Assembly (NCBI GenBank): GCA_003054665.1
Contig: QAYY01000014.1
Coordinates: forward strand, 62,001-126,000
Length of the DNA: 64,000 bases
Direction: 5' to 3'
DNA from: Opitutaceae bacterium EW11
GTDB taxonomy: Bacteria > Verrucomicrobiota > Verrucomicrobiia > Opitutales > Opitutaceae
Part shown: piece by piece, positions 16,248 to 52,322 of the stretch
How the letters are laid out: the number at the start of each line of letters is the position of its first letter
Position numbering within the stretch: position 1 is the first letter of the stretch
Notes under the pieces: generated by a model
Database searches by the model: none
What the model was told of the DNA's origin: nothing
The model's input: the letters and a program-made list of their open reading frames with translations, nothing else
Translations under genes and position numbers: made by a program

Positions 16248-16478
16248 TCAGCGGCCTACGTAGACAACCTTCCGCACCGTTTTGTCGGATCTTTGAAGTA
16301 TGATACGTACATTCATGCCCACCTTATCTGCATTAGTCACGATGGCCCAAACAGTGAACCCAGGAATGATCCTGATCGGATCCAAACAAGGCCACCCATT
16401 CGAAGAACAGACTGAATGCGCAATCTCGTTTGCCTCTGACTCAGTCAGTGATCCACGGGTGAAGAGATTGAACATCAT
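16248..16478 (-). CDS. hypothetical 76-residue protein
   Basis: The ATG at 16478 has a good ribosome site (GAAGAAGG, about six to nine bases upstream). The protein has an N-terminal helix (LTESEANEIAHSVC) and then a sheet-like part with alternating hydrophobic residues (IIPGFTVWAIVTN, VRIILQRSDKTVRKVVYV). It looks like a small folded domain, but I know no family. The start overlaps the stop of the 52-residue frame before it, so the two appear translationally coupled. Partner or immunity functions are possible but unproven. Confidence 0.55.
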   Translation of the reverse strand: MMFNLFTRGSLTESEANEIAHSVCSSNGWPCLDPIRIIPGFTVWAIVTNADKVGMNVRIILQRSDKTVRKVVYVGR

Positions 16479-16633
16479 CGGCTGCCTTCTTCAAGCAAGT
16501 AGACACTGCCTCCGAAAACTGAACCTCCAGTCACTGTTTCCCCGAGAATGCCCCATGCAGTCAAACGATAGCTTCCATTCAGCGGGAATTCAAGGCCGGT
16601 TCGGACCGCTTGCGTAAGTGACATTCCTGTCAT
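16475..16633 (-). CDS. small ORF (52 residues) coupled to the next gene
   Basis: A short frame starting at ATG 16633 (or 16624) and ending in a TGA that overlaps the ATG of the 76-residue gene. The protein begins MTGMSLTQAV and has a glycine-rich beta-like end (GETVTGGSVFGGSVYLLEEG), which looks coding rather than random. It starts where an IS110 remnant ends, so it may be the tail of a gene cut by that insertion. The ribosome site is weak. It could instead be a coincidental frame. Confidence 0.4.
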   Translation of the reverse strand: MTGMSLTQAVRTGLEFPLNGSYRLTAWGILGETVTGGSVFGGSVYLLEEGSR

Positions 16634-16899
16634 GTTTCTCGTTCGGCAATCAGTCGGGTTTTGCCCGGATGCGAAAGAACGACTTCGTCCAACTCAGGGA
16701 CCTCACAAAGATAGTCGAACAGCCAACCCCAATTCCAGCAGGCCTCCATGACTGCCTTGGAGTGGGGCCCAAGCTCGCGAAAATAGGCTGCAAGCACAAC
16801 CGGGTCGTTCCTCTCAATGCGAGCTTCGCGAACCACGGTGTCGTCTTCGTCAATGGTGCAGAGCACCGAGTAAGCCTTGTAGTAGTCGATGCCAGCGTC
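16630..16899 (-). pseudogene. remnant of an IS110-family transposase (N-terminal part)
   Basis: The translation matches the start of IS110-type transposases: AGIDYYKAYSV, then EACWNWGWLFDYLCE and VLSHPGKTRLIAE, typical of the RuvC-like DEDD domain. Only about 90 residues of roughly 350 remain, there is no proper start codon before AGIDYY, and the frame stops right after RLIAERET. It differs from the complete IS110 gene at 37726. It marks an old, decayed insertion. Confidence 0.7.
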
Positions 16900-17004
16900 A
16901 CGGCAAAGACCCGCTCTCGTACCTGCGCGATGTCCTCCGCCGGCTCCTGTCTATGTCCAACCAAGACGATCTGAGCCCGCTTACCCCAGCAGGTTGGCAG
17001 CCAG

Positions 17005-17087
17005 CGTAGCCGTCACATCTACGCTGATGCGCCGTTCGTAGACCTCATCTATACGATACCCGGCTGAACGTAGACCTCACATCTACG
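17005..17087. repeat. three 19-base palindromic units with exact 32-base period
   Basis: Units start at 17005, 17037 and 17069. The best is CGTAGACCTCACATCTACG, an inverted repeat CGTAGA/TCTACG; the other two are CGTAGCCGTCACATCTACG and CGTAGACCTCATCTATACG. The 13-base spacers differ. Three units of this kind are too few and too degenerate to call CRISPR; iteron-like or operator sites fit better. The surrounding 16900-17331 holds no gene I can support. Confidence 0.55.
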
Positions 17088-17331
17088 TGTCAAGGGCACC
17101 GGGTCGGACGCTTACGGCCGCTCATAACACGCACATGGATAACGGGGCGGCAATTCTCGGATCGTTCGAACGGCTGCGCCGCGTATTGATCAGCTTTTTC
17201 GGTGCGAGACTTGTGCCGTGTGAAGGAGGCGCTCGCGTAGGACACTTACCCAGCTAATCCAGCTGCGTCACGCTCTTCGTCATCCCGCGGGTCGACGAGC
17301 AGGGGGTAATGCACCAAGCTAAATGCCCGCC

Positions 17332-17652
17332 CTAACACGCGAAATTATCGTCAACGAACATTTCAGCAAACTGCTGCGGCGCGAGTGTAGCCGAGTGCTG
17401 CTCTGCAATTACAAGATTCTCAGCCCAGTTCGTCCGAATGAGTTCCGGCATATTGGCCGGCAGACTCATTGCACCAGCGATGATCTCGCGCCAATTCCCG
17501 GGCTGATTGAGCACCTTTCGAAGCTTCGGCTCCATTTGAGCCAGCGCTTGTTCTTCTTTTGGCTCAAGCTTGCCGATCGCCCAAAGCACGTAGCATTCAA
17601 GCAGGCGAAGCATCGGCTTCCCATCGTAGCGATTGCTGGCAGTCATAGACAT
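17332..17652 (-). CDS. hypothetical 106-residue protein, third gene of the Rhs operon
   Basis: The ATG at 17652 overlaps the TAA of the gene before it (TAATG), a sign of coupled translation. The protein is mostly helical (LRLLECYVLWAIGKLEPKEEQALAQMEPKLRKVL), without signal peptide or membrane span. Its position after an Rhs toxin and a candidate immunity gene suggests a second immunity protein or an accessory factor. I do not recognise the family. Confidence 0.6.
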   Translation of the reverse strand: MSMTASNRYDGKPMLRLLECYVLWAIGKLEPKEEQALAQMEPKLRKVLNQPGNWREIIAGAMSLPANMPELIRTNWAENLVIAEQHSATLAPQQFAEMFVDDNFAC

Positions 17653-17930
17653 TAGGCGTCGTTGATCGCGTAATCGATTAGGCGCTGGCAGCGTTCATTT
17701 GCGGAAGGCTTCTTCGGTAAGGATGCTTCCAAATCTTCGATGAAGTCTTGCGCGACAGATATCTCCAAAAAGTAGGACATACCGCGCGATTCAGGATCCG
17801 CGGGCACAGTACCTTCCTGCGGCTCAGCACCAACAATGGCCGTTGAAGTTGGCGACCAAGGCTCAACCGCGTAGATTGTGTGCTCAGGGTCAAACTCACC
17901 CAGTTTGTTGGTGGCTTCGAGTAGCGTCAT
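17652..17930 (-). CDS. candidate immunity protein for the Rhs nuclease
   Basis: A 92-residue acidic protein whose ATG at 17930 overlaps the TGA of the Rhs gene (ATGA); an in-frame ATG at 17939 is also possible and lies inside the Rhs end. It begins MTLLEATNKLGEF and has a sheet-like centre (HTIYAVEPWSP) and a helical end. Immunity genes of polymorphic toxins nearly always follow directly after the toxin tip in this way, and acidic proteins suit binding to a basic nuclease. No family is recognised, so the role is inferred from position. Confidence 0.65.
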   Translation of the reverse strand: MTLLEATNKLGEFDPEHTIYAVEPWSPTSTAIVGAEPQEGTVPADPESRGMSYFLEISVAQDFIEDLEASLPKKPSANERCQRLIDYAINDA

Positions 17931-20900
17931 TTTCCCCATATTGAGTAGCCGCCCTTCCCCTCCGGATGCAAGAGATTCTGCCAAAGACTACCGGGGGCGT
18001 GCTGGGACCGCGGAACGAGCTCCAGCCATCCTAGCTCGGGAGCATGATGCCAGGTCCAACCAACTGGCGAGCGTCTCGGAGCGAGACCTGTCGGCGTGCG
18101 TTTCAGGTTGACGCCGATATCGTTCATCGCTTGCGCAAAGCTTTCATCAGCTTCCGTCAACCTCAGGAGGTTTGCGTTTGCCTCTCGGAAGTGCGCTCCG
18201 CGCGAGAGTCCAGGATATGACTCCGGCGCGAGTCGTGTTCGATATGCTACAGAGTAAACTTTCGGCGCTGCTGCCGCCTCCACAGTGGCTGGCGTTCCCA
18301 GTTTTCTGGTAGCCCAGATCAGAATAGCATTGAACGTAAGTGCTCCGGCTCCCTCCGGAGTGGTAAAAAGGTCAACGAAGCCCTGCATCTGTTCAGCTTG
18401 CCAAGCTTCCGTACCCGCAATGAAGCCGCCCGGATGCGAAAAAGCGTCTTTCATGTGCCAAAGCTCAGCAACTCCCGGAGGAATAGGCATAAACGCCCCT
18501 TTGGCTGCACCCAAGAATCCCCGCCCGAACCTTGTTCCGGTGCCCCCGCGAGGATCCTCACGGTAGAAGCTCTCCTCTGGATACGGGTCGTCTCTGTATC
18601 GTATAGCGGTTGGCAGATCTAGGTCAGCCGCTAAATCGCTCTTTCGCAGTTCCTCTGCCTTCTTCTTCGCTGCATCATTGCCGGCTTCATTTGCTGCCGC
18701 ATTGACGCTCTTGTCCTCGTAGTTAAGACCACCTAAGAAAGCCCTCTGGGCAACGGAGGTCATTATCTGCGCTTCCCTTTGCCTTGCTTCAGCAGCAGCT
18801 CGTTCGCCTTCCTCTCGGATTGCCTTGTCCTTTTCTGTCTCTTCCGGCTTGGTTTTTGACTCCTCCTCTTTCGAATCCCCAGTCAGCATCGACAAGAACC
18901 CACTGAAGGCATCCCAAATGGAGCCCTGACCCAGGACGTCATAGCGGTTAACTGCGTCATTTCCACAGAATCCATAGAGGTTAAGCCCACCTTGCTCTTC
19001 GATTGGGTCTCGGTTTATGAAGCGACCTAATCTGGGACAATAATACCGCATTCCAAAGTAGACCAATCCCAATTCAACGTCCTCATATTGAGTCGAAAAC
19101 CGGAACGGTGGCGCGGCATAGTTCATTTTTGCAATCACACGCCCAAATGCGTCATATTCGTAAGTATATACGTCATAGCGTCCGTTTAGGTCGAAATATG
19201 AGATAATATTGCAAGATGGGTCATAGACTGGGGTAAAGGTCCCCCCTGATCCTCCATCCACGAATAGGAGCCCGCCAACACCACCACCGCCTCCAATCAA
19301 ACCCGACGCATCCAGTCCCCAGACGTATAGGCTCTTGAAATAACCGGTCGAATAGAGCTCAGCGAGCATGGACCACCCCGAATACACGAAGCGAGTTATA
19401 GTGGTTACCTTGCGCCTTGTAGTCGCTTTCTCCACCCGACGGCCAAGGTAGTCGTATTTGAATGTTACTATAACGCTTGTTGAGGTAGTAACCGCATTTG
19501 ACGCTGAGGAGAGCCGATTCTCAGCATCATAGGTATAAACATAGCTCCCGTCATTAAGAAGATTTCCATTCGCATCGTAGGCATTCGCCGGTAGTGCCCC
19601 GACTCCAGGCAACATAGTGTACTGATTCAGTTCATTGGGTGTTCCGTAGGTCTCCACCCCAGCACTACCCAACTCCGAAAGGCGATTCCCGATGGAATCG
19701 TACGTATAATCGAGACTTGTTCCGCTACGGAGGGCACCCAATGTCCAGTCTGTATTTAGCAGATATTTACCGGAACTGTCGAGTTCGTCTCTGTCGGTAT
19801 AAGTATAATCCGTGTGCGTGCCCGGAGCATACACTCCCCCGCCGAGAAGGACATACTTCTGCGCCATTGTTTTCTCGGTGTTACGCCGATTGAATTCGTC
19901 ATACGTCACTCGTGTCTCTATTGAATTCGCCGCAACCCCTCCCCATCCATGCTTAAGGGTATCGAGACGGTCACTGTCAGTGCGATATACGAACTCCCGG
20001 ATAGCAGAACCTTGAGTGACTGTTCCGACGAGATTTGAGTTAGGGACATAGGTGTATATAGCATCAGAAAGCGACCCATACCCCACCCTATTCAACCGCA
20101 GTGTTTCATCGTAGCCGTATGTAACGTTGTATCTTGTTCCGGTGTCGAGCCTAAGGGTCTGCGGGACACCATTAGCCCGACCACTGACGCCGTGTTGGTA
20201 TCCGTATGTTATAACATGAGAGCCGAGCGTTGCAGGTAGCGTCTCTGAGCTGAGTCGGCCATTGCCCTGCTCCGCCGTTCCATTTGGATTCTCATTGTAG
20301 GCGAATGTTCGAGTTCCGACACAATCCGTGACGGACAGCAACTGACCAGTCCTACGATAGGTGTAGCTCACACCTGTTGTGCCGTCCGAATAGCTCACCG
20401 TGCCAAGGCGACCGCGGGCATCATATTCGTAGGTTGTTGTGATATTACGCGCGTCAGTCCTGGTGCGCACCCGATCCATCGTATCGTAGGTGTACGAAAT
20501 CCCTCCTGATTTTGCGTCAGTCTTGCTCTTTAGGAGCCCACTTTTGTCTTCGTATTCCCAAGTGGTCGTGTCGCCTGCACCAGCAAAGCCGTCCGGTACC
20601 GTCGTTCCGCTCCAGGTTCCAGACCGGTAAGTGTGTAGTTTCGTTCTCTGCCCGGCATCGTTGTATTCGAAGCGAGCCGGGTTAACCGTGTCTCCCCACT
20701 GGCAAGAAACGTTACCCGCTGCATCGTAGCTGTAACGCGCACTCTTTCCCGCAAATGTGCTTACGACAGTGTGTCCATCAGCGTCATAGGAGAAGCTCGT
20801 CACTTTGCCGTCTGTCGCCGTGATAGTTGAGGGAAGGGCTGTCCCTGGATAGTAATCGTAGCTTGTCGTTCCAATGCGTGGATCGCTTACCGCCTCAAGG

Positions 20901-33451: not shown

Positions 33452-34480
33452 ATGACTTATGCGGCCCTAAGCTTGCCGCGCGGATTTTCCCAAAATAGTG
33501 GGAGGACCGTGAAACCGGCCCTCGCCCCTCCCGCCTCTCCTCCCCCGGCCGCTTTAGGCCTCGACGCTCCCCTGCCCCCGGTCATCGCCCGCGCCGGTCC
33601 CAAAGCCCGGTCCCGCTTTGTCGAATTCTTTGCCGCCCATATCCGAAACCCGAATACGCGCGAAGCCTACGCCCGGGCTCTCGCCCGCTTTTTCCACTGG
33701 GCCGAAACCCGGGGCCTAAAACTTCGGCAGCTTAAGCCGGTCGTCATCGCCGCCTACGTGGAAGAACTGGGCCGCGAACTTTCGCCCCCCAGCGTCAAAC
33801 AGCACCTCGCGGCCATTCGGGTCCTGTGCGACTTTTTTGTCCTAGGACAGGTCCTCCCCTGGAACCCCGCGGCCTCCGTTCGGGGCCCCAAGTACGTTGT
33901 GAAGCGCGGAAAAACGCCGGTTCTCACCCGCGCTGAGACTCGCAAGCTCCTCGATTCCATTCCCGTCGATACCGTGATCGGGCTTCGCGATCGCGCTTTG
34001 ATCGGGGTTCTCCTCTTTGGCTTCGCGAGGATTTCGGCTGCTGTCGGAGCGCAGGTATGCGACTATCGACCCGAACGGCGTGTCGTCCGGCTTTTGGAAA
34101 AAGGCGGAAAACCCCGCGAGGTACCGGTCCACCGGGATTTGGCGGGGTATCTGGACCCGTACCTCGAGGCGGCGAAGCTCGTTGGGAGCTCCCCTCTTTT
34201 CCCGAGCGTGGCCGGGAAGACAGGGAAATTCACGGACCACGCCATGACCCGCGGCGACGCGCTTCGCATGGTCAAGCGACGCGCGAGCGCGGTCGGGCTC
34301 TCGCTGGAGATTTCCTGCCACTCCTTCCGCGGCACGGGGATCACCGCGTACCTCGCGGCCGGCGGCACTATCGAAAGAGCCCAAGCCATGGCCGGGCACG
34401 AATCGCCGCAGACCACCAAGCTCTACGACCGCACGACGGACGAACTAACGCCGGAAGAATTGGAGCGGGTTCACTTCTGA
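33452..34480 (+). CDS. tyrosine recombinase (second)
   Basis: A 342-residue site-specific recombinase. It has a Pro/Ala-rich N-terminal lead, a core-binding domain (about 50-145) and a complete active site: Arg193 in FARIS, Lys near 217-220, His290 and Arg293 in CHSFRG, His316 in AGHES and Tyr325 in TKLYDRT. It resembles XerC/D-like and integron-type recombinases more than phage integrases. Its place among Tn7-like cargo suggests a nested element or a resolvase for cointegrates. It ends convergently with the LuxR-type gene. Confidence 0.85.
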   Translation: MTYAALSLPRGFSQNSGRTVKPALAPPASPPPAALGLDAPLPPVIARAGPKARSRFVEFFAAHIRNPNTREAYARALARFFHWAETRGLKLRQLKPVVIAAYVEELGRELSPPSVKQHLAAIRVLCDFFVLGQVLPWNPAASVRGPKYVVKRGKTPVLTRAETRKLLDSIPVDTVIGLRDRALIGVLLFGFARISAAVGAQVCDYRPERRVVRLLEKGGKPREVPVHRDLAGYLDPYLEAAKLVGSSPLFPSVAGKTGKFTDHAMTRGDALRMVKRRASAVGLSLEISCHSFRGTGITAYLAAGGTIERAQAMAGHESPQTTKLYDRTTDELTPEELERVHF

Positions 34481-34516: not shown

Positions 34517-35170
34517 CTACGCTGCGTCCGAAGGCCTCAGAATTGCGACCAGCTGGGTCCGTGAGGAGACCGATAACTTGGAGTAGATCGCCCCGAGCTG
34601 GGACTTGACCGTGGTGACGCTTTTGCCGAGCGCGGCCGCGACCTCGCTGTTGCGGAGCCCCTCGGCTACAAGTTTCGCGACCCGCCGCTCTGCTAGGGTA
34701 AGAAGGGCCAGCTGCTCTTTGCGCCCCGCGCGTACGCTATCCTTCAGCGTGTCCTGAAAGAGAACGCAGAAGATAGCGCAGCGGCGATCTCGGGGACTGC
34801 GGTCCAGCGCTACCACGGCCGTAAGCCCCGGCTCGTCCGGATGTCGCAGCAAAATTCGCCCGCCGAAACTGGGCCGAGCCGCCTTAGTGCCGGGGCGGCG
34901 CACTCCCTCCCGGAGTCGCTCGCATGCGGAGATGATTTCCGGAGGAACGGCGGTCGCGTTTAGCCGAGCTTTCGTTACGGCGCGGCCCGTATTCCAACGG
35001 CTAAGGAGGTCGATGCCCTCCCGATTACAGAAGAGGACCCGGCCGTGCGCATCCAGCGCAGCGCCTCCGATGGGCATCGAGTGGCAGAGCTGCTCCACCG
35101 CGAGCCTCCGCAGCCCATCGTCCGGGGGACGCCGCGTCGCGGCCGAAAAACGATAGGTTCGGGGCTTCAT
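34517..35170 (-). CDS. PAS-like / LuxR-type transcription regulator
   Basis: A 217-residue protein. The first half has a PAS-like fold (MPIGGAALDAHGRVLFCNREGIDLL), the second a LuxR-type helix-turn-helix (LTLAERRVAKLVAEGLRNSEVAAALGKS, then VTTVKSQLGAIYSKL). It probably senses a small molecule or partner protein and binds DNA as a dimer. It is divergent from the XRE gene; two GTGTCA-type palindromes lie between them, the first only seven bases before this start codon. A relative with the same layout is at 40856. Confidence 0.8.
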   Translation of the reverse strand: MKPRTYRFSAATRRPPDDGLRRLAVEQLCHSMPIGGAALDAHGRVLFCNREGIDLLSRWNTGRAVTKARLNATAVPPEIISACERLREGVRRPGTKAARPSFGGRILLRHPDEPGLTAVVALDRSPRDRRCAIFCVLFQDTLKDSVRAGRKEQLALLTLAERRVAKLVAEGLRNSEVAAALGKSVTTVKSQLGAIYSKLSVSSRTQLVAILRPSDAA

Positions 35171-35241: not shown

Positions 35242-35511
35242 TTGAAACGAGCTGCACAACGAGGCCATAACATCCTGGGCCGGCGCATCCGGGAAGCGCG
35301 CCTGCACCACCGCGCGGGGATGACGCAGGCCGATCTCGCTGCTCGGCTCACGGTGCGAGGGGTTGTGCTGGATCGGGCGTCGATTACCCGCGTTGAGAAT
35401 GGGAAGCGCTACCTGCGCGACTACGAGATTCGCGCGATCGCCTCCGTGCTTCGGGTTTCGGTGGCGTGGCTCTTCCGAGAAACGACCGACCCCAAGCCCG
35501 TGCGGCGCTAG
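35242..35511 (+). CDS. XRE-family helix-turn-helix regulator, copy 1
   Basis: An 89-residue Cro/CI-type protein: LGRRIREARLHHRAGMTQADLAARL, then RASITRVENGKRYLRDYEIRAIASVL, as in XRE repressors. The TTG start at 35242 is supported by the second copy at 51811, which has GTG at the same place. A 15-base palindrome precedes the start, so it likely represses itself. It is followed by two genes of unknown role, and the block of about 510 bases is repeated at 51812. Confidence 0.82.
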   Translation: MKRAAQRGHNILGRRIREARLHHRAGMTQADLAARLTVRGVVLDRASITRVENGKRYLRDYEIRAIASVLRVSVAWLFRETTDPKPVRR

Positions 35512-35573
35512 GCTCGGCGATTTCCCACCTTTGGCGGATTCCCGGGGAGCGCGGGTCTGGTATCGTGGGATCG

Positions 35574-35927
35574 ATGAGCCAAAGCTCCTCGAATCCACCG
35601 CCTAACGACGCCACCTCGCCAGCTGCCCGACTGGAGCAGCACTTACGGTCAAAGTCGTGCATCGCGTACGAAGAGAACCTGAAGGATCGTGAGTATCCCT
35701 TCGTGACCTGCTCCATTTATGGAGCGCCGAAGACGAACGAACTCTTTGTTCGCCTTACGAATGGGCAGATTAGTTTCGTCGACGTGACGCAGTCCCCACT
35801 CCTCTACCCCGCCATGGCCGACAGGATTTTCGGCATGGACGTCGCCGATTCCCAGGTCGCGTTTGGACTTGCGGAGAAGCTTTGGGAAAAACACCGCGAT
35901 GAGTTGCTTGGGGCCCCGCAGCCATGA
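35574..35927 (+). CDS. hypothetical protein downstream of XRE, copy 1
   Basis: A 117-residue protein starting at ATG 35574; a longer frame from 35466 overlaps the XRE gene and is unlikely. It has a polar N-terminal lead (SQSSSNPPPNDATS) and then a mixed domain with VTCSIYGAPKTNELFVRL strands and a C-terminal helix. I know no family. The first 60 residues recur in the truncated copy at 52142. The stop overlaps the next start (ATGA), so the three genes probably form one operon with the XRE gene. Confidence 0.6.
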   Translation: MSQSSSNPPPNDATSPAARLEQHLRSKSCIAYEENLKDREYPFVTCSIYGAPKTNELFVRLTNGQISFVDVTQSPLLYPAMADRIFGMDVADSQVAFGLAEKLWEKHRDELLGAPQP

Positions 35928-37324: not shown

Positions 37325-38799
<1,475 letters not shown>

Positions 38800-40493: not shown

Positions 40494-40855
40494 AACCCGC
40501 GCACCACCTATGAACGATCAAATAAGAAGGCCGGCCAAGTGATTTTCCCACGAGGCCGGCCAAAATTCTGAACGCTCCGAAAGACGTTTTCACGAATCCC
40601 AAGCGACAGACAACAACGCAGGGATTAGTGTTCTGACGTCCAAGGTCAAGCGTTATGTCGCGCTTTGCCGCGCCCGTGTAGCGCGGATAGTGGTTTGACG
40701 CCACCGCCCGGCACCGCACGCGAAATCGCATCGGTCCAACTCGATGCTGCTGGAACGATACCGTCCTGAGCAAGGCATACATCTGCCTCAATAGGCGGGA
40801 GGCTACTGTCTGACTTGCCGTCAATCCTCAGACGTCCGTGAGACGTCGAACACTA

Positions 40856-41368
40856 ATGTCCCTATCGCTTCATATCGGTTCGTCGGCGCCGCGAATGCGG
40901 CGCGACAATTTTGGTGAAATGAGTCCAGCGTTCCTCTTGCTTGATACGCGACTGCGTGTTGTGCGATGGAATCGGGCTGCAACCGCGCTGCTGCGTCACT
41001 GTGCCTATCCAAGCCCGTACACCAAGGCACCGCTACCGGAAGAGTTCTGCCACGCTTGCCGCCTGGCGATCGCTCAGTCCAAACCGCAGCTATTTTCCTC
41101 GGGTAGTTTGACCGCGAAAATCCTGCCACTACCGGATATCGAGAGGCAGACGGAACGCGTGAAGCTCTGCGTTTTGTTGAGCGGCACGCATATGCTATCT
41201 CCGAGCGAGTTCATAGTTATCGCGCTCATCGCGCGAGGACTTCGAAACAAAGAGATTGCGGCTCTAAGAAGTACGGGGAAGGAGACGGTCAAAACGCATG
41301 TGCGACAGATTCTTGCGAAACTGGGTGTGAAATCCCGATCCAAGGTCGCCGCAATATTTTCCCAGTAG
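40856..41368 (+). CDS. PAS-like / LuxR-type transcription regulator, second
   Basis: A 170-residue protein; ATG 40856 is used, while GTG 40838 would add six residues. It has a PAS-like N-terminal half (MSPAFLLLDTRLRVVRWNRAATALL) and a LuxR-type helix-turn-helix (LSPSEFIVIALIARGLRNKEIAAL, then VKTHVRQILAKLGV). It matches the layout of the protein at 34517. It lies just before tnsA in the same direction and is a good candidate for transposition control. Confidence 0.78.
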   Translation: MSLSLHIGSSAPRMRRDNFGEMSPAFLLLDTRLRVVRWNRAATALLRHCAYPSPYTKAPLPEEFCHACRLAIAQSKPQLFSSGSLTAKILPLPDIERQTERVKLCVLLSGTHMLSPSEFIVIALIARGLRNKEIAALRSTGKETVKTHVRQILAKLGVKSRSKVAAIFSQ

Positions 41369-41618: not shown

Positions 41619-42348
41619 ATGAATAACACAACAGATATGACAAACAGTCGGAGCGTCTTTTTCCGATACGGTTCGTTCCTTCAAAAGCGGCCGGTAAATT
41701 TGCGGGGCTACCGACCGACATATTTCAGCCCCACCAACTGTCGTTGGGTGAGCGCGCCCTCACTGGCGCACTACAACCGTGGACTGGAGCTGGAGTTCGG
41801 CAACGTCGATCAATACGAGCTCGCCAACTATCGGGTGTGCGTCGCTGCCGAACGAGGACTTGCGAAGGGAGTCCTAGACTGTTGGGTTGCGCGAGGGAAA
41901 ACCGAGTGGGTGGAGACGTTTGCTACCGGCGGCGATCCAGAGATCAATGAGTCCCCCCGGACTGAGCGGCTTTGCGCCACGGAAGTGGTGCGCCGTGCGC
42001 GGAGTCTCTCATAAGTTTGTTTCAAGGGGGCCACTGGCCCGGCGAACGACGCTGCGGGAAAGCCGCCGAAGAATCGTCGGCGCTTACAAGGCGGAACTCT
42101 ACAGCTCACGGACCGCTGAGGTTCGGCGTTGGTCGGTTCATCTTCTCGAGCACCTTCAATCCGCTGGGACCTGTACGGTTTCGCAATTGCTGAAGCTGTG
42201 TCAGACGTCTGTGCCAGGCGAACTGGCGAGCATGGCCGTTTGCGAGCTTATCCGCACTGGGAAAGCAGATGCCGGACTCGCGGATCGGCCATACGACGCC
42301 GCATCAAGCCTGAAGGTCTCGCGCGGGATTTTACCAGCCGTCAAATGA
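41619..42348 (+). pseudogene. tnsA: TnsA-like transposase endonuclease subunit, frameshifted
   Basis: The first frame (to the TAA at 42012) carries a TnsA-like nuclease part: LAHYNRGLELEFG, YELANYRV, GVLDCWVARGKTEWVETFA. The second frame continues as HKFVSRGPLARRTTL and a winged helix, HLLEHLQSAGTCTVSQLL, up to the TGA at 42348. Joined, they give about 243 residues, a normal TnsA length. The break falls in a TCTCTC run near 42005-42012, so a two-base slip is likely. TnsA cuts the 5' ends of the element; the EVK motif reads ETF here, so the active site may be dead anyway. Programmed frameshifting is an alternative. The end overlaps tnsB by ATGA. Confidence 0.65.
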
Positions 42349-44234
42349 GCCCCAGGTCCCTCGATTCGACGCGGCTCGACTGGAGAAAGTGGCCCGACGT
42401 TAACACCGCCGAGATGGATGAGTTCGAAAGGAAGTATTTTCTCTGTCGAAAGCACGCACTGTGCATGTACGTCGATGGGCACCCAACCGCCAGTATAGCG
42501 GCGGCGACCGGCATTCCGCGGCAGCACCTTTCAGTTCTGCTGGGCAAAGCCATGGACATTCACCATGACGGCCATATCTTCGGCTTTCGCGCCTGTCGCT
42601 ACTATGCGCGGGTCAAGCGTTACAAGCGGCAGATGCGGCCGCCCCGGCCTGGCACAAAATTTGGCTATGCGGGCGCTCTCCAGCAACTACTCGAAGCCTA
42701 TCCAGCCATCGCCCGCGGCTTCCGGCAATTCGTGATGGGCGCTAGCCCCGAAAAAATCGCGCGACTCAGCCAGGCAAGGCTGAACAAGAAGTTCGAGGAA
42801 CTGTGTCGAACGGAGGGGCTTACCGAGGCTGTCTACCCGATGAATTTGCCGTTTGGGGCTCTATCCTCGGTGGTGCGGCTGGTCAAACGTTGGATAATGG
42901 AAGAGGCGCAGCGCTTCGCAGCCATACGTGGAGGTGCCCGCGCGGCTAGGAAGTTCGGCAGCGGAGTGCGGGAACCTCGAGCCCGACTTGCCACGTACCA
43001 GAGGGTCGAATTCGACGGGCACCTGATCGATGGGTTCTTCACGATCCGCGTGGTCAATCCGGACGGGCTGGAGGCCACGCTTACCTTGGAACGCATTTGG
43101 TTACTGCTCGTCCGTGAATGCGCAACTGGCGCAATCCTCGGATACCACTTGGTGTTGCGAAGGGAATACTCGGCCGAGGACGTTCTCACATGTATTGAGA
43201 ACGCGATCCGGCCGTGGACGCGAAAGACGCTAACCATCCCCTCCCTTGAGTATCCGCCGGGCGCGGGATTACCGAGCGGCTCAATTCCCTCGCTCTCTTG
43301 GGCGGTCTGGCAGGAACTCACTTTCGACAATGCTGCTGCCCACGGAAAATCGATCGGTTCTTGGGTGTGGGATACCGTCGCAAAGCAGATAGGGTGCGTC
43401 ATTGACCCCGGTCCAGTGGCAACCCCGGATTCGCGCCTTATCGAGGGTCTGTTCCGTAACTTGACGGGAAATGGATTCCAAACGCTGCCGGGCACAACCG
43501 GCAAAGGCCCCGGGGATCCCCGGTGCGCCAATCCCGAAAAGGAGGCGCTCGCATATGACGTCTCTCTCGATGAGATAGAAGAGGTTTTGGACGTCTACTT
43601 AGCGGACTTTAACGCGCGCCCCACCCAAACAACCTACGGGCGATCACCCCTTTCGGCGCTCGAATATTCTCTCGGCCAAGGCACCGAGAGCATTAGTCAC
43701 ATCCCGGAAAACAAACGTGAGGATTTCTGCCTTACCCGGCAAACAAGACGAGTGTTCATACGGGGACCGCTCGAGAAAGGTTACCCACTGCATGTCAACT
43801 TCATGCATGTCCCATATACGAGCGCACAACTCTCCGGAGCGGCGGCGCTCGAGAACACGTGGATGCTCGCCGATATAAATACCAGGGATCTGCGTACGAT
43901 TCGTTTATCGCTTCCTAACGGGGATCACTACGGCGTCATTACCGCCACGCGCGGCTGGGGCGTCACAAAGCATGATCAGCGGGTTCGCGGGGCGATTTTC
44001 GATCTCGTGCGTAAGGGCAAGATGTTCCTACGAGACCGCGACGACCCCATCGAAGTGTACCTCCGGCACCTTGAGGAGAAGAAGTCACTTAGGGTGAAAC
44101 GTAAGCGTAACATGCTGGCTCATACGAGGCGCGCCGCAGAGCGGCCGCTGTGTGACCCGATCGCCCCCGCCAAGTTGATGCCAAAGAAGCTGGCGCCGAT
44201 CCGCCCACGTAAACCGAACGCCGACTCAGGCTGA
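42345..44234 (+). CDS. tnsB: TnsB-like DDE transposase
   Basis: A 629-residue protein starting at ATG 42345, which overlaps the tnsA stop. The N-terminal part has helix-turn-helix character (HPTASIAAATGIPRQHLSVLLGK). The rve catalytic domain shows Asp224 in VEFDGH, Asp328 in TFDNAAAH and Glu367 in RLIEGLFRNL, a complete DDE set with 39-residue spacing. A beta-barrel and a basic end (LRVKRKRNML) follow. TnsB cuts and joins the 3' ends of Tn7-like elements and binds repeats at both ends. It works with TnsA, TnsC and TniQ encoded beside it. Confidence 0.88.
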   Translation: MSPRSLDSTRLDWRKWPDVNTAEMDEFERKYFLCRKHALCMYVDGHPTASIAAATGIPRQHLSVLLGKAMDIHHDGHIFGFRACRYYARVKRYKRQMRPPRPGTKFGYAGALQQLLEAYPAIARGFRQFVMGASPEKIARLSQARLNKKFEELCRTEGLTEAVYPMNLPFGALSSVVRLVKRWIMEEAQRFAAIRGGARAARKFGSGVREPRARLATYQRVEFDGHLIDGFFTIRVVNPDGLEATLTLERIWLLLVRECATGAILGYHLVLRREYSAEDVLTCIENAIRPWTRKTLTIPSLEYPPGAGLPSGSIPSLSWAVWQELTFDNAAAHGKSIGSWVWDTVAKQIGCVIDPGPVATPDSRLIEGLFRNLTGNGFQTLPGTTGKGPGDPRCANPEKEALAYDVSLDEIEEVLDVYLADFNARPTQTTYGRSPLSALEYSLGQGTESISHIPENKREDFCLTRQTRRVFIRGPLEKGYPLHVNFMHVPYTSAQLSGAAALENTWMLADINTRDLRTIRLSLPNGDHYGVITATRGWGVTKHDQRVRGAIFDLVRKGKMFLRDRDDPIEVYLRHLEEKKSLRVKRKRNMLAHTRRAAERPLCDPIAPAKLMPKKLAPIRPRKPNADSG

Positions 44235-44246
44235 GTAGAAAGCTCT

Positions 44247-44640
44247 ATGCACGACCCGAACCACTCCATGGGAAACAAGCCTAGCGATCCTCCGCCCCAA
44301 CCGCCACTTTTTCCGAACTTCCAGCATCCGATCGAACTCGACGACAATATGGTCCAAACGAGTTTGGCACTCACGTCGGTTGTTGTGCCCGCGTTGGCGC
44401 GAAACGCAACCGGATCCATTCTATACGGCAGCGAACGTCGCGGGAAATCGGCTGCTACTACACATCTTCCCATCGAATTCTGCTAAAGCTTCCCCGGACT
44501 AGCAACGTACACGATCGTATGCCCACGGTCCTGAAGTCGATGGTGTCGGCCGCTGTGTTACCCGATTACTCACATAATGAAAAGGCAATGCAAGCTGCCG
44601 CCGATCGGGCCACATAATCTGCGCGCCTAACAATATATCT
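44247..44640 (+). pseudogene. truncated, decayed copy of tnsC
   Basis: The first 79 codons resemble the start of the intact tnsC that follows: Pro-rich lead, NFQHPIELDD, LALTSVVVPALARNATGSIL and a Walker A-like GSERRGKS, against QHPVELG, RWVARNATGNIL and GNQRHGKS in tnsC. After a stop at 44484 the similarity goes on in pieces (SFPGLATYT-like in DNA). The copy thus arose by tandem duplication and then decayed. It keeps its own start and may still be translated as a short peptide. Confidence 0.65.
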
Positions 44641-44661
44641 GCGCATGACTCAATTCCCTCC

Positions 44662-45699
44662 ATGAAGAAAAAATCCAAAGATACCCCGGCCCCTCAGCCA
44701 CCTCCCCCGGGCTCGCCGAATGGCCAGCATCCGGTCGAGCTCGGTCATTATACTATCACCACCCCTATGCTTTCGGCCCTAACACCGATCGTTGTGCGCT
44801 GGGTCGCGCGAAACGCGACCGGGAACATCCTGCGTGGCAACCAGCGTCACGGGAAATCGCACGCCTGTCCGTATTTCTCCGGCAAACTCAGCGAGAAATT
44901 CCCCGGCATACTCACGTACACGATCATCTGCCGCACGGCCCTAAAGCCGACAGAACGGGCGTTCTTCGAACGGCTATTAGAGGCAACGCATCACCTTGAC
45001 CCGAGCCGGGGTACAGCCTCGGCGATGCGCAACCGCCTTACGGGATTTCTTGTCGAGGAGGTGCGACGTTCGAATCAGAACCGGATCGTGCTCTTCATCG
45101 ACGAAGCACAAAAGTTACTAGAGACGCACTACGACTGGCTCATCGATCTCCACAACGAACTGCGGTTGGTGCACGTGGACATGACTGTGATTCTCGTCGG
45201 ACAAAACGAACTGATCGATCAGCGAAGCGACTACAAAGCACGGCGAAAAAACCACATTTTTGGTCGCTTCATGCGTGAAGAATACGAATTGGCACCGATC
45301 CGGACCAAAGCGGAACTCGCCGAGTGTCTGAAGAAGTTCGACGACCCCAAAGCATGCTGCTGGCCAGAAGGCAGCGGAATCTGCTACACGGCACACTTTT
45401 TCAAAGAAGCGTACGCGGCGGGTTGGCGATTGGCGAACATCGCAGACGTTCTTTGGGAATCTTTTGATGAAGTCAGGGTCCGAAATGGAGTATCCCAGGC
45501 GCGGCTCGAAATCGCACTCGAAGACTTCTTCCTCACCATTAAGACGTTCCTCATTGAGGTCGGCAGGCGCAAATCCACGGATCCTGACGTCAAGAAGGAA
45601 GAGCTGATGCCAATGATCGTGGAAGCCGGCTTTGGCAGCGCAGAGCTTCCTCCTGAAGATCCGGGCGAGGACTCGGACGACGATCCGGATGAAAGCTGA
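44662..45699 (+). CDS. tnsC: TnsC-like AAA+ ATPase
   Basis: A 345-residue ATPase with Walker A GNQRHGKS (59-66) and Walker B RIVLFIDEAQ (141-150), followed by VDMTVILVGQNEL (sensor 1 region). TnsC polymerises on DNA at the target chosen by TniQ/TnsD and recruits the transposase. The C-terminal tail is acidic (PGEDSDDDPDES) and encoded where the next gene starts. It is longer than TniB and nearer to Tn7-type TnsC. The ATG at 44662 is preceded by a CCTCC-like stretch rather than a good ribosome site. Confidence 0.85.
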   Translation: MKKKSKDTPAPQPPPPGSPNGQHPVELGHYTITTPMLSALTPIVVRWVARNATGNILRGNQRHGKSHACPYFSGKLSEKFPGILTYTIICRTALKPTERAFFERLLEATHHLDPSRGTASAMRNRLTGFLVEEVRRSNQNRIVLFIDEAQKLLETHYDWLIDLHNELRLVHVDMTVILVGQNELIDQRSDYKARRKNHIFGRFMREEYELAPIRTKAELAECLKKFDDPKACCWPEGSGICYTAHFFKEAYAAGWRLANIADVLWESFDEVRVRNGVSQARLEIALEDFFLTIKTFLIEVGRRKSTDPDVKKEELMPMIVEAGFGSAELPPEDPGEDSDDDPDES

Positions 45700-47071
45700 C
45701 CTGCGCGTATGTTGGCCGCGAGACTGGTTCCAACCCCACGAGTCGCTCTGGTCCATCTTCTGGAAACTCGGCCTCGCCAATGCGACGTCTCCAGAACTCC
45801 TAGCCCGACATTTTGCCGCCACTGCCGAGGACGCTCGTGCCCGTCAGATACGCCTTCCTCATCTACTTGCGGCGCGTCGCTTCGATTTGGAACGCTTGGC
45901 TCAGGCAGCGCGGATTCGTGTATCGGACTTAGGGGTGGTCGGCGTCGATCAGATCCTAGGTTTCGAGCATAGATTCCAGCAATGGTGGGTTTGGCAAACA
46001 GCACAGTTCTGCCCATGCTGTTTCGAGGAAGGATTCCATTCCGTCGTGTTCCAGTTGCGCGGGGTTTGTCGGTGTCCCCGCCACCACGTTGCCCTCGTCT
46101 CGGCGTGTCCTGCGTGCAGCCAGCCTATCCCGCTAGGGTTCGGTTCAGGTGGGCGATTTATATGTGCAAAATGCGGTCATGCCATCGGCATGTTTGCAGC
46201 TCGTTCGACAATTCGGTCGAGTTGCGGGCCCGAGTTCGATGAGCTCATCGCGTGGGCAGGCAGGATTGCGACCGGTGACGCAGACAACCCAGCTTGCGTG
46301 ATGAATCACGGCCTTTCCGATGCTCAGCCCAGTGGGCTTAGCCTGCACACCCCAGGGTATCATCGATCGAATCTTTTTCGTTACGCGGCCGAGTTTTATG
46401 ACGGGACGCACTCATGCCCGGCGCCGTTCGCGCTGTCGGCAGAGAACTGCCCAGTGATTGTACAGCACCGCGCACGTATTTCCCGTCCGCGTCTCCGCGG
46501 CTCCGTAACCGCGCAACATGGTTACTTCCTCTTGCTGGCAAAGCACTATCTCCGCCTCTTACGCCGGTTCAGGCGTCGTATGCGGTCGCCAAGAAAGGTA
46601 CATTCTGTCTTTCGATCCGCTTCAGACGCGCTTCGTCCAGGGGATTGGTGCTACCTTTTGGCTCGTGCTCTTTGGGAGGAGTGTTCGGTGTGGTCGCTCG
46701 CCGACTACTCGACAGTGCAAGGTAGGCTGAGCATCGCCGATTTGACAGAGCTTGGTGCGGCCCTTGATCGATCCGCCCAAAAGTACTTCAAATTGCCCGA
46801 ACCAACCGGGAAAGGCCGACGGTGGAGCGACTGCACTTGGGCGAACCTTCACGTGTGGACAGCGGCATTCATGCAAACCGTCCGGATCGTAGACGAGCAC
46901 TTGGGCTGCGGACGCTCTCCGGACCACGTTGAATCTCAGGTCCGCGCCTTCGACTGCGAACGCCTTCCGGTCGTGCTGCTTCGCACGGGCGACAGCTCCA
47001 AAGAGAACGCTGACTTGTACATCTGGTCATTTCCAACAGCGCACGAGGTTGCGAATCGACGGTCGGAGTAA
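45689..47071 (+). CDS. tniQ: TniQ/TnsD-family target selector
   Basis: A 460-residue protein; the ATG at 45689 overlaps the tnsC end by 11 bases. An N-terminal TniQ domain (ESLWSIFWKLGLAN) is followed by zinc-binding cysteines: Cys108/110/111 in FCPCC, Cys127/129 with His132 in VCRCPRHH, Cys140/143 in CPAC and Cys159/162 with His164 in ICAKCGH. This matches TniQ/TnsD proteins, which choose the target and bring TnsC. The size is between short CRISPR-linked TniQ and full TnsD, and no Cascade or Cas12k genes are in the window, so it probably binds a DNA site by itself. Confidence 0.85.
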   Translation: MKADLRVCWPRDWFQPHESLWSIFWKLGLANATSPELLARHFAATAEDARARQIRLPHLLAARRFDLERLAQAARIRVSDLGVVGVDQILGFEHRFQQWWVWQTAQFCPCCFEEGFHSVVFQLRGVCRCPRHHVALVSACPACSQPIPLGFGSGGRFICAKCGHAIGMFAARSTIRSSCGPEFDELIAWAGRIATGDADNPACVMNHGLSDAQPSGLSLHTPGYHRSNLFRYAAEFYDGTHSCPAPFALSAENCPVIVQHRARISRPRLRGSVTAQHGYFLLLAKHYLRLLRRFRRRMRSPRKVHSVFRSASDALRPGDWCYLLARALWEECSVWSLADYSTVQGRLSIADLTELGAALDRSAQKYFKLPEPTGKGRRWSDCTWANLHVWTAAFMQTVRIVDEHLGCGRSPDHVESQVRAFDCERLPVVLLRTGDSSKENADLYIWSFPTAHEVANRRSE

Positions 47072-47332: not shown

Positions 47333-47484
47333 TGTCACAACTTTTCTGCACAGTGGCCGCACCGCGAATGTTGTGACGTTTTCGAGCACACTTGTAGCGA
47401 CATTCCTTTAACCCATGTAGTGATCGATGTTTACCGATCGTTAGGCGCTCTGTTGCGATGTCACAACAATTGCGCCACTGTGCG
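47333..47484. repeat. cluster of GTCACAAC sites, candidate transposon end
   Basis: GTCACAAC occurs at 47333-47340 and 47460-47467 and inverted at 47369-47376. CACTGTGC-type pieces accompany them at 47345-47355 (inverted) and 47475-47484. The cluster lies some 260 bases after tniQ, where an element end with TnsB sites would be expected. The mixed orientation is unlike classical Tn7 ends, which carry direct repeats, so an operator array is possible too. I found no second cluster at the left side. Confidence 0.45.
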
Positions 47485-51810: not shown

Positions 51811-52080
51811 GTGAAACGAGCTGCACAACGAGGTCATAATAGCCTAGGCTGGCGCATCCGGGAAGCGCGCGTCCGTCACCGCGCAGGGATCTCACAGGCG
51901 GATCTCGCGGCTCGGCTCACGGTGCGAGGGGTTCCGTTCGATCGGGCGTCCATTACTCGCCTAGAGAACGGGAAACGTTACCTGCGTGACTACGAGATTT
52001 GCGCGATCGCATCGGTGCTCAGGGTGTCGGTGGCTTGGCTCTTCCGAGAAACAACCGCCCCGAAGCCCGTGCGGCGCTAG
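51811..52080 (+). CDS. XRE-family helix-turn-helix regulator, copy 2
   Basis: An 89-residue protein nearly identical to copy 1, starting at GTG 51811 (a TTG at 51796 in unrelated flanking DNA is less likely). Helix-turn-helix residues (GISQADLAARL, RASITRLENGKRYLRDYE) are kept, so it may still bind the same operators, those at 35178, 35223 and 41534. Its own promoter and operators were not copied, so expression would depend on new upstream sequence. Confidence 0.75.
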   Translation: MKRAAQRGHNSLGWRIREARVRHRAGISQADLAARLTVRGVPFDRASITRLENGKRYLRDYEICAIASVLRVSVAWLFRETTAPKPVRR

Positions 52081-52322
52081 CGTCGGTGATTTCCCACCTT
52101 TGGCGGATTCCAGGCGGAGCGGGTCTGGCATCGTCGGATCGATGAACCGAAGCTCGTCGAATCCACCACCTAACGACGCCACCTCGCCAGCTGCCCGACT
52201 GGAGCAGCATATACGGTCAAAGTCATGCCTCGCGTACATAGAGAAGCTGAGGGACCGTGAGCATGCCTTCGTCACCTTCTCCATTTACGGAGCACCGAAG
52301 ACGAACGATCTCTTTGTTTGCC
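51812..52322 (+). repeat. 511-base duplicated XRE module (second copy of 35243-35753)
   Basis: The two blocks have the same length and start with the same TGAAACGAGCTGCACAACGA. They differ by scattered substitutions that mostly preserve the proteins. The copy starts right at the XRE start codon, without the palindromic operators, and ends inside the downstream gene. Both neighbours, an unknown gene on the left and araC-type on the right, are disturbed at the junctions. Confidence 0.75.

Follow-up and report, generated by a model that had tools for sequence, protein, structure and literature searches.

A Tn7-like element of Opitutaceae bacterium EW11 with a broken tnsA, from a family that probably retains TnsA as a non-catalytic subunit

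We analysed a 64,000-nucleotide stretch of the Opitutaceae bacterium EW11 genome (contig QAYY01000014.1, positions 62,001 to 126,000; hereafter the window), in which four genes of the same direction, tnsA-tnsB-tnsC-tniQ, form one Tn7-like operon at 41619–47071 (Table 1). As the preliminary description of the locus had stated, tnsB, tnsC and tniQ are intact, all three being open frames, and the tnsA-like gene 5′ of tnsB lies in two frames, with stops at 42012–42014 and 42346–42348. TnsA of this element also lacks catalytic residues, as do most TnsA homologues of related elements, and we read the locus as probably a decaying Tn7-like element whose family transposes by copy-in and has a non-catalytic TnsA.

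TnsB was identified by homology to tnsB of plasmid and genome relatives; a Pfam search gave no match for it or for either TnsA piece, and its Asp-Asp-Glu residues are unchanged across a nine-sequence alignment. The source genome is a 6.4-Mb draft of 45 contigs in which TnsB is single-copy, no second copy being found at E 0.001. TnsC, besides its AAA_22 match, reaches the TniB model at 0.00049, under the TniB cut-off, and has relatives in 63 plasmid records. A target selector of the TniQ/TnsD type is present. The second tnsA frame overlaps tnsB by ATGA.

Table 1. Features of the Tn7-like operon and its 3′ side (positions in the window)
Feature	Position	Strand	Basis or remark
tnsA, N-terminal (nuclease) half, frame 0	41619–42014	+	Open frame; weak TnsA similarity to ~41924
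tnsA frame-switch interval	41925–41973		Bounded by the frame-0 and second-frame profile matches; CCCCCC at 41953–41958
tnsA, C-terminal half, second frame	41947–42348	+	TnsA profile match from 41974; ATG 41947 a possible start, 133 aa
tnsB, DDE transposase, 629 aa, open	42345–44234	+	Homology; Asp224, Asp328 and Glu367 invariant in family alignment
Decayed tnsC-start copy	44249–44546	+	Repeat comparison within the junction
Decayed tnsB-tail copy	44547–44661	+	Tandem copy of 44142–44546 starts here and continues into tnsC
tnsC, AAA+ ATPase, 345 aa	44662–45699	+	AAA_22 1.2e-10; plasmid relatives
tniQ, ~460 aa, ATG 45689	45689–47071	+	PF06527 2.4e-9
Three GTCACAAC motifs, mixed orientation	47333–47480		Motif search; possible remnant of a transposon end

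The break in tnsA was located with a profile built from 81 related TnsA proteins. The frame-0 piece matches this profile only weakly (E 0.13, Z=30), and its match ends at about 41924; the second-frame piece matches profile positions 105–211 from 41974 onwards (E 2.7e-7, Z=30). Since the frame-0 match stops and the second-frame match starts at these points, the switch of frame lies within 41925–41973, and the frame-0 sequence beyond ~41924 has probably left the TnsA frame. A frameshift had been proposed at a TCTCTC run (42004–42010); the break itself is confirmed, but this site is ruled out as the place of the switch, since TnsA similarity is already in the second frame upstream of it. Clear TnsA likeness survives in the C-terminal half only and the nuclease half is barely recognisable, so that the window TnsA is degenerate in addition to being frameshifted.

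The switch interval holds a run of six C, a common site of insertion-deletion errors; apart from the break, no stop interrupts the ~730 bp of tnsA, and the genes of its relatives are whole. These points speak for a sequencing or assembly error in the C run, behind which tnsA would truly be one frame, whole but degenerate like those of its relatives. We consider such an error unlikely, though a serious contender, and it would leave the finding of lost catalytic residues unaffected.

As the preliminary description had proposed, tnsA was inspected in related elements. Eighty-nine loci with a related tnsB were collected, two of them cut by contig ends (L018, L043). Of the remaining 87, 81 have directly 5′ of tnsB a tnsA homologue that is in one frame and no shorter than 170 aa, so these elements are not of the TnsA-less type. 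In the other six (L009, L042, L045, L075, L080, L091) tnsA is broken or short. One of them, L091 from a Paraburkholderia metagenome-assembled genome, changes frame in the region corresponding to the window break; this change also adjoins a C run but has the opposite sense. The lesions of the other five are stops, a deletion or frame changes at other places. Thus, the window break is one among several sporadic ones and, taken alone as one gene in one genome, is ordinary.

The catalytic residues of PseCAST TnsA are Glu34, Asp71 and Lys87 (PMC13228271). For scoring, these and residue 63 of Tn7 TnsA were aligned to Glu36, Asp73 and Lys89 of a Klebsiella plasmid homologue (L008) through a profile of active-type proteins, in which Tn7 residue 63 falls at the catalytic Glu position. 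We take the catalytic numbering of Tn7 TnsA to include Asp114 and Lys132. The window TnsA has His at the Glu position, retains the Asp and has no Lys at the third position, where the residue is Thr by alignment or Phe by hand alignment. Its Glu-Asp-Lys triad is therefore incomplete independently of the frameshift, and the frame is broken as well.

This state is the common one in the family. Among the 81 single-frame TnsA homologues adjoining a related tnsB, the triad is complete in 14, five lack one residue and 62 lack two or more, so that 67 lack at least one; we call such proteins disarmed. The losses fall on Glu (64 proteins) and Lys (64) and seldom on Asp (6), which is retained in 75. Intact triads occur in Bacillota, a Klebsiella plasmid element, Nitrospira, Blastocatellia and a single genome from the window's own family; in a group consisting mainly of Burkholderiales, none of the 59 TnsA rows is triad-intact. 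In one locus of genome G616 (L016) the nuclease core has been deleted in frame, leaving an N-terminal part and the C-terminal domain.

Disarmed tnsA is under purifying selection. In 25 hand-picked disarmed pairs, one of which gave no value, the median ratio of nonsynonymous to synonymous substitution rates (dN/dS) was 0.195 for tnsA (range 0.12–0.34) and 0.128 for tnsB; three intact pairs gave 0.18 and 0.11, respectively. Profile-profile comparison of 42 disarmed with 15 active-type TnsA sequences (the latter including L012, with Gln at the Glu position) returned a probability of 99.8 and E 2.3e-28 over 210 columns. A structure model of one disarmed TnsA (L089), made from an alignment of 38 disarmed and six intact rows, had a mean predicted local distance difference test score (pLDDT) of 91.4. 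At E up to 0.001 Foldseek returned four hits for this model, every one a TnsA entry, and VIA-align gave Z scores of 10.3, 9.0 and 8.9 to TnsA entries, with a root mean square deviation of 4.5–5.8 over 180–191 residues. The disarmed proteins are thus members of the TnsA family by sequence profile and by the predicted fold of one of them. The Pfam TnsA model PF08722 matched 14 of the 15 active-type sequences and none of the 42 disarmed ones, and the disarmed profile found no TnsA by sequence among solved PDB chains, which would explain why disarmed TnsA is annotated as hypothetical.

Ends of related elements were derived from near-identical copies (TGTCAAACG...CGTTTGACA in Robbsia; CGT-type in Paraburkholderia and others). 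Ends were available for 18 distinct disarmed elements, and 15 of these measure 4.6–5.2 kb, which leaves space for tnsA, tnsB, tnsC and a single gene at the tniQ position, and none for cargo. This fourth gene of the small elements is ‘tniQ’ by position only, as Pfam named none of six tested, including those of L008 and L096.

Target-site duplications were counted in hand-picked rows with ends scoring 15 to 18 of 20 and lying near tnsA. We dropped L046 and L083 (14 of 20, no duplication), L039 and L086 (an apparent duplication, judged to be chance, at ends of 13 and 14 of 20 unlike those of the family), L081, L094 and L095 (right end not found) and L052 (ends unsure). L084 has a second possible right end, likewise without duplication; L098–L100 represent one element, as do L101–L102, and L077 is 97% identical to L101. 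In the intact group, ends were obtained for five of 14 elements (L021, L023, L029, L031, L096), those of L021 and L023 being on different contigs. An exact 5-bp duplication in cis is present in three of 21 disarmed copies compared with three of five intact elements (Fisher test, p 0.06). In the remaining two intact elements, direct repeats (10 and 6 bp, respectively) lie at most 4 bp from the ends, an arrangement seen in no disarmed copy. The chance level, taken from flanks of different elements, was 2 of 462 for an exact match and 3 of 462 for a looser one.

In two strains duplications are shared in trans between plasmids. The copies on p1 and p2 of Robbsia andropogonis BLB1 carry exactly swapped 5-mers, GCTGT/ACAGT, on both sides, and in Paraburkholderia PGU19 the left flank of the p3 copy equals the right flank of the p1 copy (ACGAG, one side). 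This is as copy-in predicts, and recombination could also give it: Robbsia and PGU19 both have near-identical copies able to recombine, and homologous recombination between cut-and-paste copies might account for missing and trans-shared duplications alike. We find such an origin rather doubtful, because 18 of 21 disarmed copies are without a duplication while all five intact elements have an exact (three) or near-terminal (two) direct repeat.

For the window element, repeat and inverted-repeat searches gave no convincing pair of ends with a 5-bp duplication, and the GTCACAAC motif found 3′ of tniQ has no matching copy 5′ of tnsA. Two of the three motifs form a 46-bp imperfect palindrome, possibly a transposon end or a regulatory site.

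Further genes lie in or next to some related elements. In an 11-kb Robbsia element (L098) a 553-aa tyrosine recombinase (16417–18078), a candidate resolvase, follows the gene in the tniQ position; the 4.6-kb elements are without one. A common 5.6-kb block with 94–95% identity, possibly an independent mobile cargo module, lies just after the transposition genes in L039 (10739–16362), L064 (10841–16461) and L086 (10809–16465). On the Klebsiella grimontii plasmid (L008, 722–5210) genes annotated as nucleotidyltransferase, ThiF, Mov34/MPN and SAVED stand directly 5′ of tnsA, a set resembling a defence operon of the cyclic-oligonucleotide-based antiphage signalling system (CBASS) type.

Another origin of the split window gene would be fission, whereby the C-terminal winged-helix domain is made alone from ATG 41947 as a reduced TnsA. 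The C half is indeed the better conserved and meets tnsB in the ATGA overlap, L016 has the N- and C-terminal parts without a nuclease core, and in L091 the stop of the first piece is overlapped by an ATG of the second. Fission is nevertheless quite improbable: it concerns one genome, second-frame similarity begins 3′ of ATG 41947 after a short unrelated leader, and the C part of L091 is TnsA-like upstream of its ATG too and so looks like a plain frameshift.

PD-(D/E)XK enzymes are known for active-site migration, and disarmed TnsA might still cut with relocated catalytic residues, given that the Asp, a second conserved Glu, a Lys and an Arg are nearly invariant. The chances of this seem slightly poorer still. 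The conserved Lys and Arg are also conserved in intact TnsA proteins, and the disarmed set has no newly invariant candidate Lys; new conservation in that set comprises a CEQP-to-CERP change and a handful of C-terminal positions. That cis duplications are scarce likewise argues against migration.

Programmed frameshifting that joins the two halves, one of two alternatives put forward in the preliminary description, can practically be dismissed: both halves are open and L091 also shifts in the corresponding region by a C run, but 81 of 87 relatives have tnsA in a single frame, the sense of the L091 shift is opposite, and TCTCTC is not at the switch.

The other alternative was that the element moves without TnsA, by copy-in. 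Copy-in is the one we favour, because the window TnsA has lost the Glu and Lys, and because disarmed relatives mostly lack cis duplications and share them in trans in two strains; ‘without TnsA’ does not hold, as the relatives keep TnsA under selection. On the reading that we hold probable as a whole, the window locus is a decaying element from a family with copy-in transposition, many members of which keep TnsA as a folded, selected, non-catalytic subunit. The window TnsA would have lost the Glu and Lys of the 5′-strand nuclease, with the frameshift in the C-rich stretch arising before or after. Disarmed TnsA would have no nuclease activity and, with no 5′ cleavage by TnsA, TnsB would cut and join the 3′ ends only. 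Replication of the joined molecule would then yield a cointegrate or an intramolecular rearrangement, that is, copy-in. Disarmed TnsA would assist assembly of the TnsB-TnsC complex, and the window copy may still be able to move.

Several observations weigh against this interpretation. The Asp is present in 75 of 81 homologues, so a metal site may remain. The duplication comparison includes just five intact elements with ends, its p-value is 0.06, the 21 disarmed copies are not independent, and recombination between copies can also yield missing or swapped duplications. The alignment behind the L089 model contained six intact rows. The window element is a single copy whose ends were not found, and its present mobility is inferred only.

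Relatives of the window TnsB were found in four of 252 genomes of the family (its own included) and in 65 plasmid records; of 157 relatives on genome contigs the best 80 were used. In a sample of the order, the source genome was the only one among 372 with a relative, and in a sample of the phylum the source genome and G616 among 387. Two scans of viral contigs found no relative. A gene flanking the element is present in 14 of 199 other genomes of the family at E 1e-60.

On a TnsB tree 66 rows, nearly all from Burkholderiales, form one well-supported group that contains no intact TnsA. The state of TnsA needs six changes, a count that comes from a tree that is not the best-likelihood one, and at least four of them are forced by well-supported branches. 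Therefore, the state of TnsA has changed more than once. The window TnsB is a long branch. A position outside the disarmed group was not upheld: the tree joining the window to the 66 rows has a log-likelihood higher by 14.2 and is not rejected (p-AU 0.8), so the loss in the window TnsA may be shared with that group or separate. In three loci (L016 and L017, both of G616, and L096) tnsB itself lies in two open frames divided at a similar place after the DDE domain (461 + 190 aa with an ATGA overlap, 470 + 286 aa and ~491 + 194 aa, respectively); natural fission or a frameshift is possible.

The junction of tnsB and tnsC in the window is unusual. The three downstream genes had been described as overlapping, which is right for tnsC and tniQ (11 bp) and wrong for tnsB and tnsC, which are 427 bp apart; the median spacing in 78 related loci is 12 bp. 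The gap contains a diverged tandem copy of 44142–44546, that is, of the tnsB tail and the tnsC start. Segments 44142–44546 and 44547–44960 align over their full length with four internal gaps, and BLAST segments across the junction have 74 to 95% identity and a common offset of 405 to 409. These data are best explained if the junction was duplicated in tandem and one tnsB end and one tnsC start then decayed. By a rough estimate, had tnsA been unselected for as long as the junction copies, about seven insertions or deletions would be expected in its 730 bp; the one frame change observed suggests that tnsA was maintained until recently.

The GC content around the element is about 55–60%, compared with about 62–66% in the flanks. 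A 513-bp direct repeat with 87% identity (35243–35754 and 51812–52322) brackets about 16 kb that include the Tn7-like element, and its right copy contains a helix-turn-helix gene. Upstream of the element lie a tyrosine recombinase (33452–34480) and an IS110-family transposase (37726–38799); two LuxR-type (GerE) regulators of similar build, at 34517–35170 (–) and 40838–41368 (+), flank the IS110 region.

The family shares with Tn7, Tn6022 and type I-F3 CRISPR-associated transposons (CASTs), which have active TnsA, the order tnsA-tnsB-tnsC-tniQ, the fold and domain order of TnsA and, in some members, inverted ends and 5-bp duplications. It differs from them in that 62 of 81 TnsA proteins lack at least two catalytic residues and in that most elements whose ends are known are 4.6–5.2 kb long, with no space for cargo. 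Copy-in with cointegrates is expected here as in the TnsA-less Tn5053 and type V-K CASTs, from which the family differs by the presence of a tnsA homologue under purifying selection. Copy-in insertion sequences of the IS26 type are likewise small and often miss duplications after intramolecular copy-in, although their transposase and gene content are unrelated.

Tn7-like elements have been sorted by tnsA, those with it being cut-and-paste and those without it replicative, often with a resolvase (PMC11406308, PMC8649781); type V-K systems, too, are without a resolvase (PMC11406308), and the second of these works searched with the Pfam models PF08721 and PF08722 (PMC8649781). An active-site mutation of TnsA (D90A) in a Vibrio cholerae CAST gives >95% cointegrates (PMC8188705). 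As in such laboratory mutants of this CAST and of Tn7, the nuclease is lost and the protein kept; in the present family, by contrast, the loss arose naturally, is old and selected, and mostly affects several active-site positions. Removal of the first 12 residues of PseCAST TnsA abolished transposition, from which its authors infer a role of TnsA in TnsB activation (PMC13228271), and this role is a possible reason to keep a disarmed TnsA. In the literature searched, which leaves most subscription papers outside it, we found no report of a natural group with a disarmed but retained and selected TnsA.

On balance, we lean towards a widespread branch of Tn7-like elements in which TnsA is a pseudonuclease kept as a structural subunit of the transpososome, committing the element to copy-in and to a small, cargo-free lifestyle resembling that of insertion sequences. 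The branch would be found mostly in Burkholderiales, relatives in Bacillota and Verrucomicrobia would have undergone losses of their own, and the window element and L016 would be further on the way to a lone C-terminal winged-helix domain. If TnsA is retained in a large group in which its active site is lost, the presence of tnsA no longer predicts the transposition pathway, and elements to which Pfam models assign no tnsA may hold an unrecognised disarmed TnsA. The structural and nuclease roles of TnsA would then be separated in natural systems, which bears on the need of CRISPR-associated transposases for TnsA.

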